Shown here: positions 981 to 63,895 of the stretch, piece after piece | Numbering within the stretch: the stretch's first letter is position 1 | Layout: the number at the start of each line of letters is the position of its first letter | Source of the DNA: Amphibacillus xylanus NBRC 15112 | GTDB taxonomy: Bacteria; Bacillota; Bacilli; Bacillales; Amphibacillaceae | Assembly (NCBI RefSeq): GCF_000307165.1 | Contig: NC_018704.1 | Location: 1,798,001-1,862,000 of the forward strand | Direction: 5' to 3' | Length of the DNA stretch: 64,000 nucleotides | Notes under the pieces: generated by a model | The model's database searches: none | Seen by the model: the letters and a program-made list of their open reading frames with translations, nothing else | What the model was told of the DNA's origin: nothing | Program-made: the position numbers and the translations under genes

Positions 981-2726
981 ATGTTTTCAGTTTTAGGTAA
1001 GTTAGCTTGGTTTTTTAAAGAGCATTGGAAGCGATATACAATTGGCATTATTGCACTAGTAATTGTTAATATCCTCGAGTTGGTACCACCACGCCTACTA
1101 GGTGAAACAATAGATTTGATTCAATTCAATGAGTTAACAAAACCAATTTTAACAAAAACAATTATTGCTTTTTTTGTCGTAATTATTGCAAAGTATTTTA
1201 TTATGCTAATTTGGGACATTAACTTATTTGGCGGATCAATTATTTTAGAGCGTAAAATGCGGTCTAAATTTATGCGTCATTTACTAAAAATGAATCCAAG
1301 TTTCTTTAGCAAAAATCGTTCTGGTGACCTAATGGCCAGGGCAACAAATGATTTAAAATCAATTATGATGACAGCCGGTTTTGGTATTTTAACACTGTTT
1401 GATTCAACCGTGTTAATGGTTTTTATTATCTTTACAATGGGATTTACAATCAGTTGGGCTTTAACATTTGCAGCCTTAATCCCAATGCCATTCATCGCAT
1501 TAGCCATTCAAAAGTACGGTAAGTCAATTCATCAAAGATTTACTGAAGCTCAAGATGCCTTTTCTGAAATGAACAACTATACACTAGAATCTATTCGTGG
1601 TGTCCGTGTTGTTCGAGCTTTTGTTCAGGAAGAGCATGACCAAGAGCGATTTAATGACATTACAGAGGACGTTTTTAATAAAAATAAATCTGTTGCAGAG
1701 CTTGACGCATTATTTGAACCTACAATTAAAATTCTTGTTGGTTTGTCATATGCGATCGGCTTAGGGTACGGGATTTACATGGTGGTTAACAATCTGATAT
1801 CAATCGGAGACTTGGTTACATTTAATATGTATTTAGGTATGTTAATTTGGCCGATGATCGCACTTGGACATTTAATTAACGTAATGCAGCGTGGCCACGC
1901 ATCACTTGATCGAGTTGAAAAAATCTTAAATCAAGAGCCAGATGTTATCGATCCGAAAGAGCCTAAATCAATTAACGCTCCTGAAGTCATTACATTTAAT
2001 AACGTTAGTTTTTCGTATCCCGGTACGAAAGAAAATCAACTTGAAAATATTAATTTAACGATTTATCGCGGACAAACAATTGGTATTGTAGGAAAGACGG
2101 GTTCAGGTAAAACAACAATGTTCAAACAATTACTACGTGATTATCTTCCACCACTTGGTGAATTAACGATTAATGGGATTCCAATTGATCAATTCACGCT
2201 CAATGAGACGCGTAGTTGGATTGGTTATGTTCCTCAAGAGCATATCTTATTTTCAAAAACAATTAGAGAGAACTTGAGCTTTGGAACAGGACCAATCAGT
2301 GATGATGTAATTTATCAAGTTTTAACATCGACTTCTTTAAAAGAAGATATCGATGCATTACCAAAAGGGTTAGATACTGTAGTTGGAGAAAGTGGTGTCA
2401 CTTTATCAGGAGGACAAAAACAACGTGTCTCACTGGCACGTGCATTACTTGTTAATCCAGAGATCTTAATTCTAGATGACTCACTCTCAGCTGTTGATGG
2501 AGAGACAGAAGCCACAATTATTGACCATTTAAGAAGAGATCGTAAAAATAAAACGACCTTAATTTCTGCTCACCGTTTATCTGCGGTCAAACATGCAGAC
2601 CAAATTATTGTATTAGACCAAGGAAAAATTGTTGAGCGCGGTACACACGATCAATTAATGGAACGTGGCGGTTGGTATCAAGAGCAATACGTGATTCAAC
2701 AAATGGAAAGGAAGGTGACAGAATGA
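981..2726 (+). CDS. bmrC: Multidrug ABC exporter half-transporter, BmrC/YheI type
   Basis: A 581-residue ABC half-transporter with six N-terminal membrane segments (to about residue 310) and a C-terminal ATPase. Walker A GKTGSGKTT is near residue 371, the LSGGQ signature near 474, and Walker B ILILDDSLS near 496. An aspartate (LDDS) replaces the usual catalytic glutamate, the degenerate ATP site known for BmrC in the BmrC-BmrD heterodimer. The start MFSVLGKLAWFF at 981 is chosen because it aligns with YheI and follows a GGAGAGTGG ribosome site. A longer in-frame start at 864 would translate through the leader terminator and is rejected. It overlaps bmrD by ATGA, implying translational coupling. 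Likely exports drugs from the membrane together with BmrD. Confidence 0.9.
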   Translation: MFSVLGKLAWFFKEHWKRYTIGIIALVIVNILELVPPRLLGETIDLIQFNELTKPILTKTIIAFFVVIIAKYFIMLIWDINLFGGSIILERKMRSKFMRHLLKMNPSFFSKNRSGDLMARATNDLKSIMMTAGFGILTLFDSTVLMVFIIFTMGFTISWALTFAALIPMPFIALAIQKYGKSIHQRFTEAQDAFSEMNNYTLESIRGVRVVRAFVQEEHDQERFNDITEDVFNKNKSVAELDALFEPTIKILVGLSYAIGLGYGIYMVVNNLISIGDLVTFNMYLGMLIWPMIALGHLINVMQRGHASLDRVEKILNQEPDVIDPKEPKSINAPEVITFNNVSFSYPGTKENQLENINLTIYRGQTIGIVGKTGSGKTTMFKQLLRDYLPPLGELTINGIPIDQFTLNETRSWIGYVPQEHILFSKTIRENLSFGTGPISDDVIYQVLTSTSLKEDIDALPKGLDTVVGESGVTLSGGQKQRVSLARALLVNPEILILDDSLSAVDGETEATIIDHLRRDRKNKTTLISAHRLSAVKHADQIIVLDQGKIVERGTHDQLMERGGWYQEQYVIQQMERKVTE

Positions 2727-4753
2727 AACCTTCTACAGAAAAAAGATTATTTCAATATGCAAAATCAAATATAAAAATTGCTGTCTTTTCACTTACCTGT
2801 TTAATTATCGGGGTTGGATTAGAATTAATTGGACCTTTTATTGCTAAATCGATAATCGATGACCACATTGTTGGTGTTCAAGCAGAATGGGTAGAGTTAG
2901 CACAGGACCAAGATGGTGCTGTTAAATTTAACGAAACATATTTCAAAAGAGCAGATCGAGTCACTTCAGATGATCAAGTTGTAGGATATCATACACTTGT
3001 GCAATCTAATCGAAGCTATTATTTTATTGATGGGCAAGTTCCAATTAATAGTCACATTCTAATTGAAGATGATCAGGATTGGGTAGCAGAATTCAATGGA
3101 GAAACCTTCGATATCGAGGGTGAGCGATTATCAACCGCTGAATTGTATCAATTCTTCAAACCAGAACTTAAACCAATTGCAATATTATTAGCAATTTCGA
3201 TAGGATTAATTTTAATCTCATCAGTATTTGCATACTTTAAGACATATTTATTACTAGTCTATGCAAATCGAATTATTGTCAATATCCGCCGAGATGCCTT
3301 TGCAAAAGTTCAACAATTACCGATGAAATATTTTGTTGATCGTCCTGCAGGTAAGATTTTAGCAAGAATCACAAATGACACTGAAGGAATTAAAGAACTA
3401 TACGTTAACGTGTTGGCAACCGCGGTCAATAGTGTTGTGTTTATGTCAGGGATTCTAATTGCGTTATTTATTCTTAATGTTAAACTAGCGTTAATTTGCT
3501 TATTAACTATACCAGCTCTATATTTATGGATTAAATTTTATTCAAAATATGCAGGTAAATTTAATCGCGTGATTCGCTCAGTCAATAGTGCAATAAACGC
3601 ATCAATTAACGAATCCATTCAAACGATGCCTATTATTCAAGCGTTTAGACGTACAAAAGAGCGACAAGAGGAATTTGAAGAGCTTAATCATCGTCATTAT
3701 CGCTATCAACAAAAGCTTGTTCGATTAGAAGCATATACGACTTTTAATCTCGTCGGATTATTAAGAGGCTTTGCACTTTTAGGCTTTATTTGGTTCTTTG
3801 GTAATGGTGCGTTAACTTCTGAAGGACTGATCACAACTGGTGTACTCTATGCCTTTGCTGATTATTTAGGTCGTTTATTTGAGCCAATGGAAATGTTGAT
3901 TAACCAACTTCCACAGCTTGAGCAAGCACGTGTCTCTGCTTCTCGCGTATTTGAATTATTAGATGAAGAAAGTGAAGTTGTTGATCATCAAGAAATTCCT
4001 CGAATTAATGGTCGAATCGAATTTGACCATGTTCACTTTGCTTATGAAGAAGATGATTATATCTTAAAAGATTTATCATTTAAGGTTGAGCCAGGCGAAA
4101 CAGTCGCTTTTGTTGGTCACACAGGTTCTGGTAAGAGCTCAATTATGAATTTATTACTACGCTTTTACGATCAACAAAAAGGAACAATTACAATCGATCA
4201 ATATGATCATAAACAACTATCACGACAACAAGTTCGTCAGCATATAAATATTGTTTTACAAGATCCATTTATTTTTACAGGAACAGTTTTATCAAATATT
4301 ACGTTAAATGATCCGAGAATAACGCGTGAAAAAGCAATTGAAGCATTAAAAACAGTTGGTGCAGATGAATTTATTGAGAAATTACCACTGAAATACGATA
4401 ATCCTGTTGGGGAAAACGGAGCTGACTTTTCAACTGGTCAACGACAACTGCTATCTTTTGCTCGTGCGTTAGCCTTTGATCCAGCAATTCTTATTTTAGA
4501 TGAGGCAACTGCAAGCATCGATACAGAGACAGAAGGATTAATTCAAAATGCGATTAATATCCTTTCTGAAGGTCGTACCATGTTGATCATCGCCCACCGA
4601 CTATCAACCATTCAACATGCCGATCAAATCATTGTTATGAAAAAAGGCAGAATGATTGAAAAAGGTACACATGATGAGCTGCTAGAATTAAACGGTAACT
4701 ACTATCAAATGTACAAAATGCAACAAGCAGGAATCATCGAACAAACTGTTTAA
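2723..4753 (+). CDS. bmrD: Multidrug ABC exporter half-transporter, BmrD/YheH type
   Basis: A 676-residue partner subunit, close to the length of B. subtilis YheH. Between the first and second membrane segments (about residues 45-145) lies a polar insert predicted to be extracellular, a feature of the BmrD subfamily. Walker A GHTGSGKSS is near residue 465, the signature is the variant STGQRQ near 569, and Walker B LILDEATASID keeps the catalytic glutamate. So this subunit supplies the competent catalytic residue and BmrC the degenerate one. ATG 2723 follows GGAAGG and overlaps the bmrC stop; the longer frame from 2672 lies inside bmrC and is rejected. Confidence 0.9.
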   Translation: MKPSTEKRLFQYAKSNIKIAVFSLTCLIIGVGLELIGPFIAKSIIDDHIVGVQAEWVELAQDQDGAVKFNETYFKRADRVTSDDQVVGYHTLVQSNRSYYFIDGQVPINSHILIEDDQDWVAEFNGETFDIEGERLSTAELYQFFKPELKPIAILLAISIGLILISSVFAYFKTYLLLVYANRIIVNIRRDAFAKVQQLPMKYFVDRPAGKILARITNDTEGIKELYVNVLATAVNSVVFMSGILIALFILNVKLALICLLTIPALYLWIKFYSKYAGKFNRVIRSVNSAINASINESIQTMPIIQAFRRTKERQEEFEELNHRHYRYQQKLVRLEAYTTFNLVGLLRGFALLGFIWFFGNGALTSEGLITTGVLYAFADYLGRLFEPMEMLINQLPQLEQARVSASRVFELLDEESEVVDHQEIPRINGRIEFDHVHFAYEEDDYILKDLSFKVEPGETVAFVGHTGSGKSSIMNLLLRFYDQQKGTITIDQYDHKQLSRQQVRQHINIVLQDPFIFTGTVLSNITLNDPRITREKAIEALKTVGADEFIEKLPLKYDNPVGENGADFSTGQRQLLSFARALAFDPAILILDEATASIDTETEGLIQNAINILSEGRTMLIIAHRLSTIQHADQIIVMKKGRMIEKGTHDELLELNGNYYQMYKMQQAGIIEQTV

Positions 4754-4789
4754 AATTTTTTATATAAAATATCGAAAAATGTGTTTGTT

Positions 4790-5303
4790 TATCGAAAAAA
4801 CGGGAATAGTATTACCACAAGGCGGTTGTAGTAAGGTATAAATCACTTACTCAATCAAATGCCTTGGCGGAAAATTTGTTTTAAACAGCTGGCGATAAGA
4901 AAACTCGTCAGGAACGTAGCCAATTTATTAAAAGCTATCGCTTGCAGGTAAAATGGTAAAAAACAATTTTTTGACAAAAGAATATTTAACAGCTAAAGAA
5001 TATTATTAAACTCCTCTGAGCTTTATAGTATTCGACTCTGCCGAGTTATAGGCACGAGGGAAAAATGCAGTTTAGCTTCTAGTACGACGAGTTAGTTCGT
5101 CAGAGTAGATTGATTTGTAAGAAACAGTTAACGATATAAAGGGAAACAGATTTTCCGCGCACCCTTTTCTATAGGGGGATATTGAAAGGCATGCTCATAA
5201 AGTCGAGCGTGCCTTTCGTATACAATGAGAGTAGGCCATGTAGATTCTCCTTTAAATTGGTTTTCGTCGACTTAATTATAAAGGAATCTACTGGCCTTTT
5301 TCT
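4790..5303 (+). ncRNA. Candidate large structured non-coding RNA
   Basis: About 500 bases without a credible ORF contain many local stems. Examples are a hairpin around 4811-4845, GACTC/GAGTT near 5034-5047, GACGA/TCGTC near 5088-5103, and a 13-bp stem 5184-5196/5205-5217 with one G-U pair. The region ends in a long intrinsic terminator (5233-5303), as expected for an independent transcript on the + strand. I see none of the conserved cores of RNase P RNA, tmRNA, SRP RNA or known riboswitches. Its size and Gram-positive host would fit the OLE RNA class of extremophilic Firmicutes, but I cannot confirm that from memory. The 5' boundary is arbitrary. Alternatives are a degraded mobile element or the untranslated tail of bmrD. 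Confidence 0.45.
5233..5303 (+). terminator. Long intrinsic terminator ending the structured region
   Basis: AGGCCA...GTAGATTC...CCTTTA pairs with TAAAGG...GAATCTAC...TGGCC across a loop near 5258-5272, giving over 20 pairs with single-base bulges, followed directly by TTTTT (5297-5301). Strong for the + strand. Confidence 0.75.
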
Positions 5304-5319
5304 ATGGATACACAAAAAA

Positions 5320-5371
5320 GGTGCCAGCGAATTCGAAAAAAGAACTCACCAACACCAAAAATTATAGAACC
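5320..5371 (-). repeat. Solo end of an ISL3-type element
   Basis: Positions 5329-5371 are an exact reverse complement of 12386-12428 (43 bases), the left end of the ISL3-type MITE described below. The match continues imperfectly to 5320. Its outer end reads GGTTC on the minus strand at 5371. No matching right end is found nearby, so this is a remnant. It abuts the T-tract of the CE15 gene terminator. Confidence 0.8.
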
Positions 5372-5374
5372 TTA

Positions 5375-5417
5375 AAAACAAAAACAATTCCACCTACTTC
5401 AGACTAGGTAGAATTGT
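5375..5417 (-). terminator. Terminator of the CE15 esterase gene
   Basis: A 13-bp stem (5384-5396 with 5405-5417, one G-U pair) is followed on the minus strand by a T-rich run (5375-5383). Confidence 0.85.
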
Positions 5418-5424
5418 CTTTTGC

Positions 5425-7326
5425 TTACTTATCATATTTATCAATACTAAAATCTTTTGCAGGTTTTATTTGGCGAAATAATTGGTCACCAAAATCTAAC
5501 ACGCGTTCAATATCTTCAAACTCGATAGAATGTGCGCCAGGTCGATAGGCGATACCTATATTTTCCTCCGCATTTAACAGCTGATAGACTTTTTTCGCTT
5601 CTAGTAAACTATCATACATACCTTCAGGATTTGTGTGATAGTCAGCGTAACCGCATGTTATGATCAATCCTCTAGGTGCAACGAGTGCCGCTAATTGATG
5701 TTGATCAAACGGTAATTGATCAATCGATTCAAATCCTAAGAAGACTGATGTAAACCAATGATTTAATGCAGAACTTTGGAGACTGCCTATCTCCTCTCCC
5801 GGACCCGCTACTCCCCATGGATAGACTTTTCCATTATATGAACTGCGAAATAGTGTCATTCCGCCAAGTCCTGATGCGTGAGGATTAACGAGTGCAAATC
5901 TATGATCGAGAGCACCGGCTACTAAAGCAGCTTTTCCGAATCGTGAAAATCCTGTAATCCCTACTTGTTTAGGATTGATCTCTGGAAAAGCATTTAATTC
6001 AAGTGCATCAATCACTTTCCCTGCTCCCCACGCCCACGCAATTAAAGTTCCGACATCATTATCCACTTCAGAGTATGGATAAAGATCAAAAAACGCCCCA
6101 GTTCGTGATGCGTTATCTGCAGCCACATTAGCCGGCTTAATTGTGATCACGGCATAACCTCGTTGATTGACTAAATCTTCTTTTGGCAATTCTTTTGGTC
6201 GAACAAAAGACATCGTTTCCTCATCAAAAGCAAGATCAAGTCCACCATTTGTAATAATCACTGGAAATGGAGCCTTAAATTTAGATTGATCTCCTGGCAA
6301 CGTGACAATTACAGGAAAACTAGTTTCTTTATCTTGAACTGAAATTTTAATTATCATACCTGAATCAGTTCTCTCAAACCCTACTTTCTCTTTTGAAGTA
6401 TCTGGCATGTAACCATACATGTAAAATTGATACATGTCCCGAATTTCTTCAGCTCTTTGCCACCAATCAGCTTCTGTATTTACTTTAGCTCCATCACCAA
6501 ATGTGAATATATCTGGTAACTGATCAAGTTTTGGAAGCCTATGCGGCTCAGTATATTGATTAGTTCTTCGTAAACTAGCGACTGTTTCTTTAAGCTTAAC
6601 TAATGCTTGGTCAATTTCAGTTTGAGAAAACTCATGACTTGCTAATAACTTTTCTGCAGCATCAATCTTAACATTCAAACTTTCTCCATTAATGTAAACC
6701 GCTTGATTAAGGCTTTTAGCGTAATCTAAATAAGCAAGTAAATCATAGCGGTTGATGCTAGTTTTCTCACCGGGCTCCTTCCCGACTAACTTAAGCTCAC
6801 CGAATAATTTTGGCATCGCATATGCTTGTCCAGTTTGATCAAATAAACTTAATGTCGCAACTCGCTTACCAGTTGCATCAGCATCATTAATTTGCAAATC
6901 AAATCCAATGACCTGCTCATTCTTCGGTTTTTCACTTAATCCAATTCGGGCCTCTATTATGTAACCAGTCTCTGTCAAGATTGAACGTGAATAAAGACGA
7001 GTAATATTACCACTATCAACTGTCTTTTCATTTTTATAATTTATTCTAAAATGTAAATCATCTTCCTCATATCTTATGGCCTTATCATTAAATTCATCGA
7101 TAAAAATCTCGATTGAATCTTGAAAATAAGGTGTTGGACTTTCGGCATTGAGTATGGCATCATTGACCTCAACTAAAAAGTATATCGCATGATCATCCCA
7201 CATAGCTCTAACCGATCCAGTCGTAGATGTAACATCTCCACTTGAAGTAACACACATTTTAGGAACAGTATCCCACAACTGATCAATTTCTCCACTCATC
7301 TTTGGCAAACCATAAATAGCTTCCAT
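5425..7326 (-). CDS. CBM9-like module fused to CE15-type esterase
   Basis: A 633-residue protein in two parts. Residues 1 to about 180 resemble the CBM9/DOMON-like carbohydrate-binding fold (VRAMWDDHAIYFLVEV, DSIEIFIDEFND). After a helical linker, residues about 270-625 form an alpha/beta hydrolase of the glucuronoyl esterase type. The nucleophile motif GFSRFGK lies near residue 460, and a C-terminal histidine is in RPGAHSIEF. CE15 enzymes cut esters between xylan glucuronic acid and lignin. There is no signal peptide, so it is probably cytoplasmic and may act on imported oligosaccharides or another acyl sugar. ATG 7326 follows AAGGATGTGA. A cre-like site upstream suggests glucose repression. 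Placement in CE15 is by motif and could be a related esterase group. Confidence 0.75.
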   Translation of the reverse strand: MEAIYGLPKMSGEIDQLWDTVPKMCVTSSGDVTSTTGSVRAMWDDHAIYFLVEVNDAILNAESPTPYFQDSIEIFIDEFNDKAIRYEEDDLHFRINYKNEKTVDSGNITRLYSRSILTETGYIIEARIGLSEKPKNEQVIGFDLQINDADATGKRVATLSLFDQTGQAYAMPKLFGELKLVGKEPGEKTSINRYDLLAYLDYAKSLNQAVYINGESLNVKIDAAEKLLASHEFSQTEIDQALVKLKETVASLRRTNQYTEPHRLPKLDQLPDIFTFGDGAKVNTEADWWQRAEEIRDMYQFYMYGYMPDTSKEKVGFERTDSGMIIKISVQDKETSFPVIVTLPGDQSKFKAPFPVIITNGGLDLAFDEETMSFVRPKELPKEDLVNQRGYAVITIKPANVAADNASRTGAFFDLYPYSEVDNDVGTLIAWAWGAGKVIDALELNAFPEINPKQVGITGFSRFGKAALVAGALDHRFALVNPHASGLGGMTLFRSSYNGKVYPWGVAGPGEEIGSLQSSALNHWFTSVFLGFESIDQLPFDQHQLAALVAPRGLIITCGYADYHTNPEGMYDSLLEAKKVYQLLNAEENIGIAYRPGAHSIEFEDIERVLDFGDQLFRQIKPAKDFSIDKYDK

Positions 7327-34231: not shown

Positions 34232-34303
34232 TGGGCTGTACTGGGATCGAACCAGTGACCTCTTCGATGTCAACGAAGCGTTCTCCCGCTGAACTAACAG
34301 CCC
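34232..34303 (-). tRNA. tRNA-Val (anticodon GAC)
   Basis: The minus strand gives a complete cloverleaf: acceptor GGGCTGT/ACAGCCC with discriminator A, D arm with AGTTCAGCGGGAGAAC, anticodon stem CTTCG/CGAAG with loop TTGACAT (anticodon GAC), and T arm CTGG-TTCGATC-CCAG. CCA is not encoded, so it must be added after transcription. It is a lone tRNA gene. Confidence 0.93.
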
Positions 34304-53222: not shown

Positions 53223-53618
53223 TTAATTGACCATTCTTTGAGCTTCAAGTAATTGTAAGTTTCTAACCTTACGAGGTAAAAAGCGTCTAATTTCATCTTC
53301 ATTATATCCGACTTGTAGTCGTTTCTCATCTAGAATAATTGGACGTCTTAAGATACCAGGATTTTCTTGAATCGTGTCGATTAAATCCTTCAATGACATT
53401 TGTTCAATATCAACTTCTAACTTTTGGAATGCTTTAGAACGAGTTGAAATAATTTCATCTGTTCCATCCTCAGTCATTCTCAAAATTTCCTTAATCTCAT
53501 CAATTGTCAACGTATCGGAGAAAATATTTCTTTCATGATAAGGTATATCGTGTTCTTCTAACCATGCTTTCGCTTTCCGACATGATGTACAGCTCGGCGA
53601 GGTATAAAGTGTAACCAT
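53223..53618 (-). CDS. spxA: Redox-sensing transcription regulator Spx
   Basis: 131 residues, ArsC-like Spx family, full length. The CxxC redox switch is C10/C13 in SPSCTSCRK, and [26 protein letters not shown] is the conserved region that contacts RNA polymerase alpha. It redirects transcription under disulfide stress; its adaptor SpxH is encoded at 46257. GAGGAG precedes the ATG. The 339-base gap upstream (53619-53957) holds only its AT-rich promoter region and the terminator of the next gene. Confidence 0.95.
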
Positions 53619-53848
53619 TTGACTTCACTCCTCATATATATAAATTTAATTGTTCACTATTTCATTTCATTATCAGATGACAATAAGTATAATGTAATAA
53701 CTAATTATTATTATACTACATATTGTGTTATATTAATAGACCCTGATACATATTTACAAAGTATTTACACAATTAGTGATATTGAAATGATCGCTTTTAC
53801 ACGGTATTCCCTATTTTTATGCTTTTAAACTATATCTCAACAAATAAA

Positions 53849-63640: not shown

Positions 63641-63655
63641 ATGAATAATTATATT

Positions 63656-63895
63656 TTAGTGCGTTGACAAAGTTTAGGATTCATAACCACTGGTTTACAA
63701 GAGAGTCTGGTCGCTGGAAACAGACACCAAGTTGTGATGAAATTGGGGCTTTCGAGCATGTATGGATAACATACCGTTTTGATCAAACGTTATCAGATCT
63801 AAAGTGATCTCATTTTCCGAGATAATTAGGGTGGCACCGCGATCTATTCGTCCCTTTATGATAATTTCGGATTATGGGTTTTTTTATTTTTTTGA
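63656..63895 (+). promoter_or_regulatory. T-box riboswitch of trpS
   Basis: Stem I runs from about 63656, with a GAGAG/K-turn region near 63700. A TGG specifier codon (63744-63746) fits tryptophan. The T-box core AGGGTGGCACCGCG is at 63828-63841. A terminator hairpin follows (CCC...ATAAT/ATTAT...GGG, about 63853-63878) with a long T-run. Uncharged tRNA-Trp would stabilise the antiterminator and switch on trpS. Specifier placement is by eye. Confidence 0.9.

Follow-up and report, generated by a model that had tools for sequence, protein, structure and literature searches.

To our knowledge, only a small number of large structured RNAs of unknown function are found in bacteria, and the SigB regulon has been studied mainly for its proteins and smaller RNAs. 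SigB-dependent RNAs include S1136-S1134 of B. subtilis, Rli47 of Listeria and RsaA of Staphylococcus. Among larger RNAs, OLE is presented in two reports as a large ornate Bacillota RNA tied to stress adaptation (PMC10898510, PMC12054373). The ModT or raiA-motif RNA is described as a conserved, structured, trans-acting Bacillota RNA with two pseudoknots (PMC11706538), and GOLLD and ROOL as large ornate bacterial RNAs that form homo-oligomers by cryo-EM (PMC12286853). Here, we analyse a locus of Amphibacillus xylanus that is probably a free-standing gene for a large pseudoknotted ncRNA, whose transcription under general stress would depend on SigB RNA polymerase.

The locus in Amphibacillus xylanus

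The window, that is the whole stretch of 64,000 nucleotides analysed, covers positions 1798001-1862000 of the A. xylanus NBRC 15112 genome, a single contig of 2,569,486 bases. It also bears one tRNA (34232-34303, -) and, near its end, a T-box leader (63655-63858, +; 97.1 bits). The original prediction placed a large structured ncRNA, perhaps of a new class, in a gene-free interval at 4790-5303. The interval is gene-free as proposed: the flanking ORFs, a 693-aa ABC transporter upstream (2672-4753, +) and a 633-aa protein without NCBIfam match downstream (5425-7326, -), stop at 4753 and 5425, and the sole ORF listed in between (61 aa, TTG start, 5182-5367) lies mostly inside a dispersed repeat. 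Structure is beyond chance, with a z of -8.24 for 4790-5310 and of -6.28 for 4814-5182, where both terminator-type hairpins are taken out. The features assigned to the region are as follows.

4783-4788, +: predicted -35 element GTTTGT of SigB type, aligned with GTTTAA/GTTTAT of the homologs, N13 to the -10 element
4802-4807, +: predicted -10 element GGGAAT of the same promoter, from homolog spacing and the published consensus
4815-5222, +: RNA gene in the 47-sequence alignment A4, its start inferred from promoter spacing and its end set by the conserved hairpin
4818-4823, +: 5′ strand of P1, CAAGGC, pairing with 4861-4866 (100% of cells paired)
4861-4866, +: 3′ strand of P1, GCCUUG, partner of 4818-4823
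4867-4878, +: 5′ strand of P2, GCGGAAAAUUUG, in the most conserved stretch, pairing with 5147-5158 about 270 nt off
4889-4895, +: 5′ strand of P3, CUGGCGA, long-range partner of 5097-5103
4903-4909, +: 5′ strand of P4, ACUCGUC, long-range partner of 5086-5092
4967-4972, +: conserved U-run, followed in most homologs by GUGAAAGUGCA, the 3′ strand of PK1
4991-5077, +: inner domain closed by AGCUAAA (4991-4997) and UUUAGCU (5071-5077), possibly P6
5086-5092, +: 3′ strand of P4, GACGAGU, long-range partner of 4903-4909
5097-5103, +: 3′ strand of P3, UCGUCAG, long-range partner of 4889-4895
5147-5158, +: 3′ strand of P2 (96.6% of P2 cells paired)
5184-5217, +: the RNA's own terminator-type hairpin, conserved, without U-tract in A. 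xylanus
5214-5372, +: dispersed-repeat fragment, outside the RNA class, holding the palindrome 5232-5303

The structured region thus stands, but not the exact limits first given to it. Positions 4783-4807 correspond to the putative promoter, so the RNA is expected to start near 4815-4817, and the conserved RNA ends at the 5184-5217 hairpin. The window copy, at about 4815-5222 (+), is one member of a class with a size of roughly 365-520 nt.

A long intrinsic terminator had also been proposed. The palindrome at 5232-5303 exists on the plus strand, but it belongs to the repeat and not to the conserved RNA. Five further repeat copies are present in the A. xylanus genome (91-95% identity over 157-160 bp), near genome positions 43042, 952326, 2212735, 2536537 and 2549048, and these share longer stretches among themselves, the longest in the compared part being 758 bp. 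The repeat has a palindrome and a T-run at one end, and 72-bp pieces of it are found at contig ends in another genome of the genus (G002). A 63-bp match (95%) to a Brochothrix thermosphacta plasmid was rejected as an RNA homolog, as it covers the repeat only. Since the RNA's own hairpin lacks a U-tract where the repeat begins, the transcript may continue into the repeat hairpin; in A. xylanus it may then stop near 5305, and the end originally proposed could be the true 3′ end.

Rfam 15 was scanned with the gathering threshold of each family and also in E-value mode up to 10. On the RNA itself no family attained its gathering score, whether in the window or in 48 additional locus scans (9 + 20 + 19, two of the loci being chance hits and some repeating the same RNA), and in E-value mode the window and two distant members yielded sub-threshold hits only. 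Common housekeeping RNAs, which had been judged not to fit, are ruled out by this absence of a match.

The suggested resemblance to OLE (RF01071) did not hold. The OLE model (criterion >50 bits) matched nothing in 4700-5440 even with E allowed up to 10, and OLE was not found in the A. xylanus genome (G000) or in two others of the genus (G001 and G002), whereas the same search detected it in 111 of 159 family genomes, with scores reaching 548 bits (about 480 bits and above in 110 genomes, 133.8 in the remaining one). Of the 25 family genomes with the new RNA, 11 also have OLE, at a separate location, compared with 100 OLE-bearing genomes among the other 134 (Fisher p 0.0039, kinship ignored), a difference to which we attach no conclusion. 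OLE is absent from the window's genus (three genomes) and from all ten g14 genomes that carry the RNA. The membrane-protein partner of OLE was correctly said not to lie beside the RNA: the adjacent ORFs, to which this comparison was limited, are the transporter and the 633-aa protein, and neither is an OapA gene. Size class and hosts are like those of OLE, but with no score here and other loci in the 11 genomes holding both, OLE or a diverged OLE is ruled out as an almost certainly wrong reading.

Homologs and the long-range fold

A blastn search in 100 relatives provided the first seven homologs besides the window copy (L002, L004, L005, L006, L007, L008 and L017); L009 and L010 were left out as chance matches. 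Of the 18 stretches that a degenerate pattern picked out of the genome contig collection, 11 were genuine: one each in Halolactibacillus miurensis, H. halophilus, H. alkaliphilus, Streptohalobacillus salinus, Natronobacillus azotifigens, Saliterribacillus persicus, Oceanobacillus polygoni, Amphibacillus sp. MSJ-3 and a Bacilli MAG, and two on an Arthrobacter-labelled contig. The other seven (L023, L027, L029, L030, L033, L036 and L038) were dropped as having neither 3′ half nor promoter, and a viral match (L039) was rejected on the same grounds.

A sequence-only model of the roughly 60-nt core detected the RNA in 25 of 159 genomes of its own family, where 31 had been listed and six weak ones (G041, G031, G014, G149, G154 and G051) were dropped on inspection, and in 4 of 24 and 3 of 34 genomes of two other families of the order. 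In the class sample, the core matched 26 of 398 genomes, of which 24 come from one further family; in that fourth family it matched 114 of 250 genomes at E <= 1e-4, among which 16 loci with 21 copies were inspected. L064, L065, L067, L068 and L069 of an earlier homolog search were dropped as chance, as were L073-L081 from the order-sample hits; L066 was retained as genuine, and so were L060 and L062 despite their low scores. An early match in G017 has no locus, and the core model no longer finds that genome. Beyond these four families, the samples of order, class and phylum yielded no confirmed member, two weak matches of the phylum sample (E 7e-4 and 8e-4) falling outside the confirmed set. 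By blastn, two members had no RNA match in phage (50,697) and plasmid (72,556) records, and a third had none in plasmid records.

The RNA is mostly present as a single copy per genome, with two copies in each of three Halolactibacillus genomes and tandem copies 409-470 nt apart in some genomes of the fourth family, and its distribution is patchy even inside genera. Scaffold NZ_JADHDX010000001.1, labelled Arthrobacter beigongshangensis REN13, bears the RNA twice (L022 and L028) and a small acid-soluble spore protein gene recognized by eye. The Arthrobacter label is therefore probably wrong, and the scaffold probably belongs to a Bacillota assembly under a wrong name. The taxid adjoining the Arthrobacter beigongshangensis entry, 2782538, is Sporosarcina beigongshangi.

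An mRNA for a small protein could be read from the ORFs that every member contains, the longest in each of the 47 homologs being 21-52 aa. However, these lengths scatter up to the maximum of 52 aa and the middle of the alignment is dominated by indels, and we regard this reading as very unlikely.

A comparison of relatives for covarying stems, put forward in the original prediction together with the Rfam search, was carried out on 47 sequences and revealed conserved, covarying stems. Among the signs then named as together speaking against the RNA, the lack of an Rfam match is present, OLE included, and the lack of conservation is not, conservation being strong. A column scan without preset structure (47 sequences, 415 columns) ranked highest the terminator hairpin, P6, PK1 and the long-range ACUCGUC/GACGAGU pairing. 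The model on alignment A4 comprises P1, P2, P3, P4, P5, P6, PK1 and the terminator, with 93.2% of its cells paired. Its both-sided changes amount to 142 cells; shuffles give 43.0 (0 of 500 reach 142) and slid versions 27-41, so that covariation exceeds both controls, as looked for in a structured ncRNA.

Individual helices contribute to this signal. P1 passes from C-G to U-A twice on the tree, and P2 displays a G-C to A-U swap and a nearly invariant AAAA/UUUU core. P3 is paired in 86% of cells and in Halolactibacillus has U-A in place of A-U; the outermost P4 pair is A-U in 29, U-A in 7, G-C in 3 and C-G in 1 (script alignment). In the terminator hairpin, 7 of the 8 scored pairs are changed on both sides across the 47 sequences. 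P6 covaries in the homologs, and the AGCUAAA/UUUAGCU pairing that the energy fold gives for A. xylanus may correspond to it. Covariation supports a predicted nested long-range stack of P1 to P4 with an inner helix.

Two putative pseudoknots are supported by covariation less firmly. PK1 (UGCAC/GUGCA) is near-invariant in 44 of the 47 sequences, with G-U in two of one genus, and it is lost on both sides together in three sequences of the window's genus; the pair tested had no Watson-Crick swap on the tree, and PK1 is thus suggestive, not proven. P5 (AAACU/AGUUU), which crosses P3 and P4, is paired in about 81-82% of cells, and three of its five pairs have changes on both sides.

The strands of P3 and P4 can also form local hairpins. 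Folded alone, the window RNA returns P1, P2, P3 and P4, and energy-only folds of the 47 single sequences split into 22 long-range, 18 local, 6 other and 1 unassigned. A conformational switch, responding for example to temperature or ions, in which CUGACGA, ACUCGUC, GACGAGU and UCGUCAG alternate between two local hairpins and P3-P4, would fit these folds, the sequence allowing both arrangements. Compensatory changes, by contrast, back the long-range form only. P3 and P4 in this form have 27 both-sided cells versus 7.9 in shuffles (0 of 500), whereas the rival local hairpins have 1 versus 1.9, a value reached by 449 of 500 shuffles. On a quick tree built without the tested columns of the model pairs, nine variable pairs picked from the model underwent a total of 24 changes from one Watson-Crick pair to another, and four pairs chosen from the local rival none. 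Moreover, the position that swaps in the long-range form in Halolactibacillus is exactly where a local pair is disrupted. We therefore consider a switch rather improbable. Local hairpins P3/P9 of a first model (33 sequences) were dropped after the 47-sequence comparison favouring the long-range P3 and P4, and the strands of its P9-inner helix are now assigned to P4 and P3.

SigB-type promoter and gene neighbourhood

The published SigB consensus is GTTTAA-N15(+/-2)-GGGTAT (PMC9847131). We defined a strict pattern, GTTT-N15..17-GG[GT][AT]A directly upstream of the first helix, and found it in 39 of 47 flanks, compared with 18 hits among 8889 control 45-mers taken at these loci. Between the fifth base of the -10 element and ACAAGG, the 39 flanks with the strict pattern have 8-11 nt. 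Six more flanks (L007, L180-L183 and L186) have, by eye, GTTTAA with a TGGTAT -10 element. The two exceptions (L057 and L063, genus g26) carry a SigA-like TTTACT..TATAAT, and their genomes keep rsbW. A slightly looser pattern matched all 11 of the additional copies, among them tandem pairs in which each member has the motif.

In A. xylanus itself, the -35 element GTTTGT has two mismatches to GTTTAA. The genome contains an anti-anti-sigma (rsbV-type) gene, rsbW and sigB in a row, the SigB protein scoring 429.9 bits, and a promoter of the same type, GTTTAACAAAAGTCTAATGGGGAAT, stands about 40 nt before the rsbV-type gene. In the family, rsbW is above cut-off in 156 of 159 genomes. The promoter pattern is not enriched across the A. 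xylanus genome, where it has 17 sites and its reversed form 14, and the GTTTG upstream of the RNA falls outside that genome-wide search pattern; the case for the promoter is thus one of position and conservation, not of count. With the motif directly upstream of the RNA and both sigB and rsbW in the genome, SigB would drive transcription of the RNA under stress. Another SigB-type promoter match in the window (53806-53830, -) lies about 190 nt upstream of a 131-aa ORF (53223-53618, -) that by eye resembles Spx/ArsC.

The genes around the RNA vary. Over 37 placed loci (35 distinct, given the duplicates L026/L166 and L035/L160; L159 and L171 of the 39 were not placed), there are 21 downstream and 21 upstream gene families, and synteny holds mainly within clades, neighbours changing between them. 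In 20 loci the ORF that comes next downstream runs on the opposite strand, and in 17 on the same strand, so that no conserved gene in the same orientation follows the RNA over the 37 loci. In genus g14 a same-strand ABC-type ATPase ORF is often found downstream, as would suit a cis-acting leader or riboswitch for the adjoining gene. However, such a leader is highly improbable in view of the opposite orientation and the diversity of the downstream ORFs, of the RNA's own 3′ hairpin, and of the tandem copies, each of which has its own promoter and its own hairpin. Own promoter, own hairpin, tandem copies and changing neighbours together fit a free-standing gene and not a leader.

Proposed role and comparison with described RNAs

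Homologs, covariation, the conserved promoter motif and the conserved 3′ hairpin support the large structured ncRNA, perhaps a new class, that was originally predicted. In the mechanism that we propose, the SigB holoenzyme would read GTTT(A)-N13 to N15-GGG(A/T)A, and transcription would start about the ACAAGGC strand and halt at the conserved hairpin. P1 would close the 5′ part of the RNA and the long-range P2-P3-P4 stack the rest, the strands of this stack being about 180-270 nt apart in A. xylanus, with P6 inside and the pseudoknots PK1 and P5 joining the domains. Speculatively, given their conservation, the AAAA/UUUU core of P2 and the U-run that immediately precedes the PK1 strand could be parts of a U-A-U triple helix at the centre of such an RNA.

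We further infer a SigB-induced structural RNA acting in trans. It would act by the fold itself, as an RNP scaffold or decoy or as an RNA-only particle, and not through a short antisense seed. A SigB-dependent antisense regulator, whose fold merely presents a short mRNA-pairing seed, would be in line with the SigB-dependent antisense RNAs known in B. subtilis, and with the near-invariance of the U-run and the GUGAAAGUGCA strand after it. Conservation nevertheless extends to the whole architecture, long-range helices included, and not to a single open stretch, which makes the antisense reading unlikely. For the structural RNA acting in trans, we tentatively suggest that this undescribed class could be a dedicated SigB stress product, a compact pseudoknotted particle, possibly RNA-only or multimeric as in the recently solved OLE, GOLLD and ROOL complexes, acting by its shape; we view this as a possibility short of an even chance.

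The RNA offers a stress-type promoter handle, a covariation-based structure and a broad host list. With that handle, a structure and mostly single copies, its role is testable. The results also suggest that the SigB regulon would include a large structural RNA.

No description of this RNA class was found in the literature searched, which was mainly open-access and available in part (including PMC11109978, PMC9847131, PMC8632094, PMC11332333, PMC8464778 and PMC11706538). OLE and the new RNA are both large, ornate and from Bacillota, and OLE is stress-linked. The new RNA differs from OLE in having no match to its model, no OapA-like neighbour in the ORF list and different places in shared genomes; it has a SigB-type promoter and roughly 365-520 nt, and the OLE model has 616 positions. 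The short isoform of ModT is 215 nt, and the new RNA matches no Rfam model. With GOLLD and ROOL it shares the character of a large ornate bacterial RNA; unlike them, it has no Rfam match and was not found in the phage and plasmid records searched. S1136-S1134, Rli47 and RsaA share SigB-type promoter control, as proposed for the new RNA. Unmatched in Rfam 15 as a family, the RNA stands, as a kind, beside OLE, GOLLD, ROOL and ModT.
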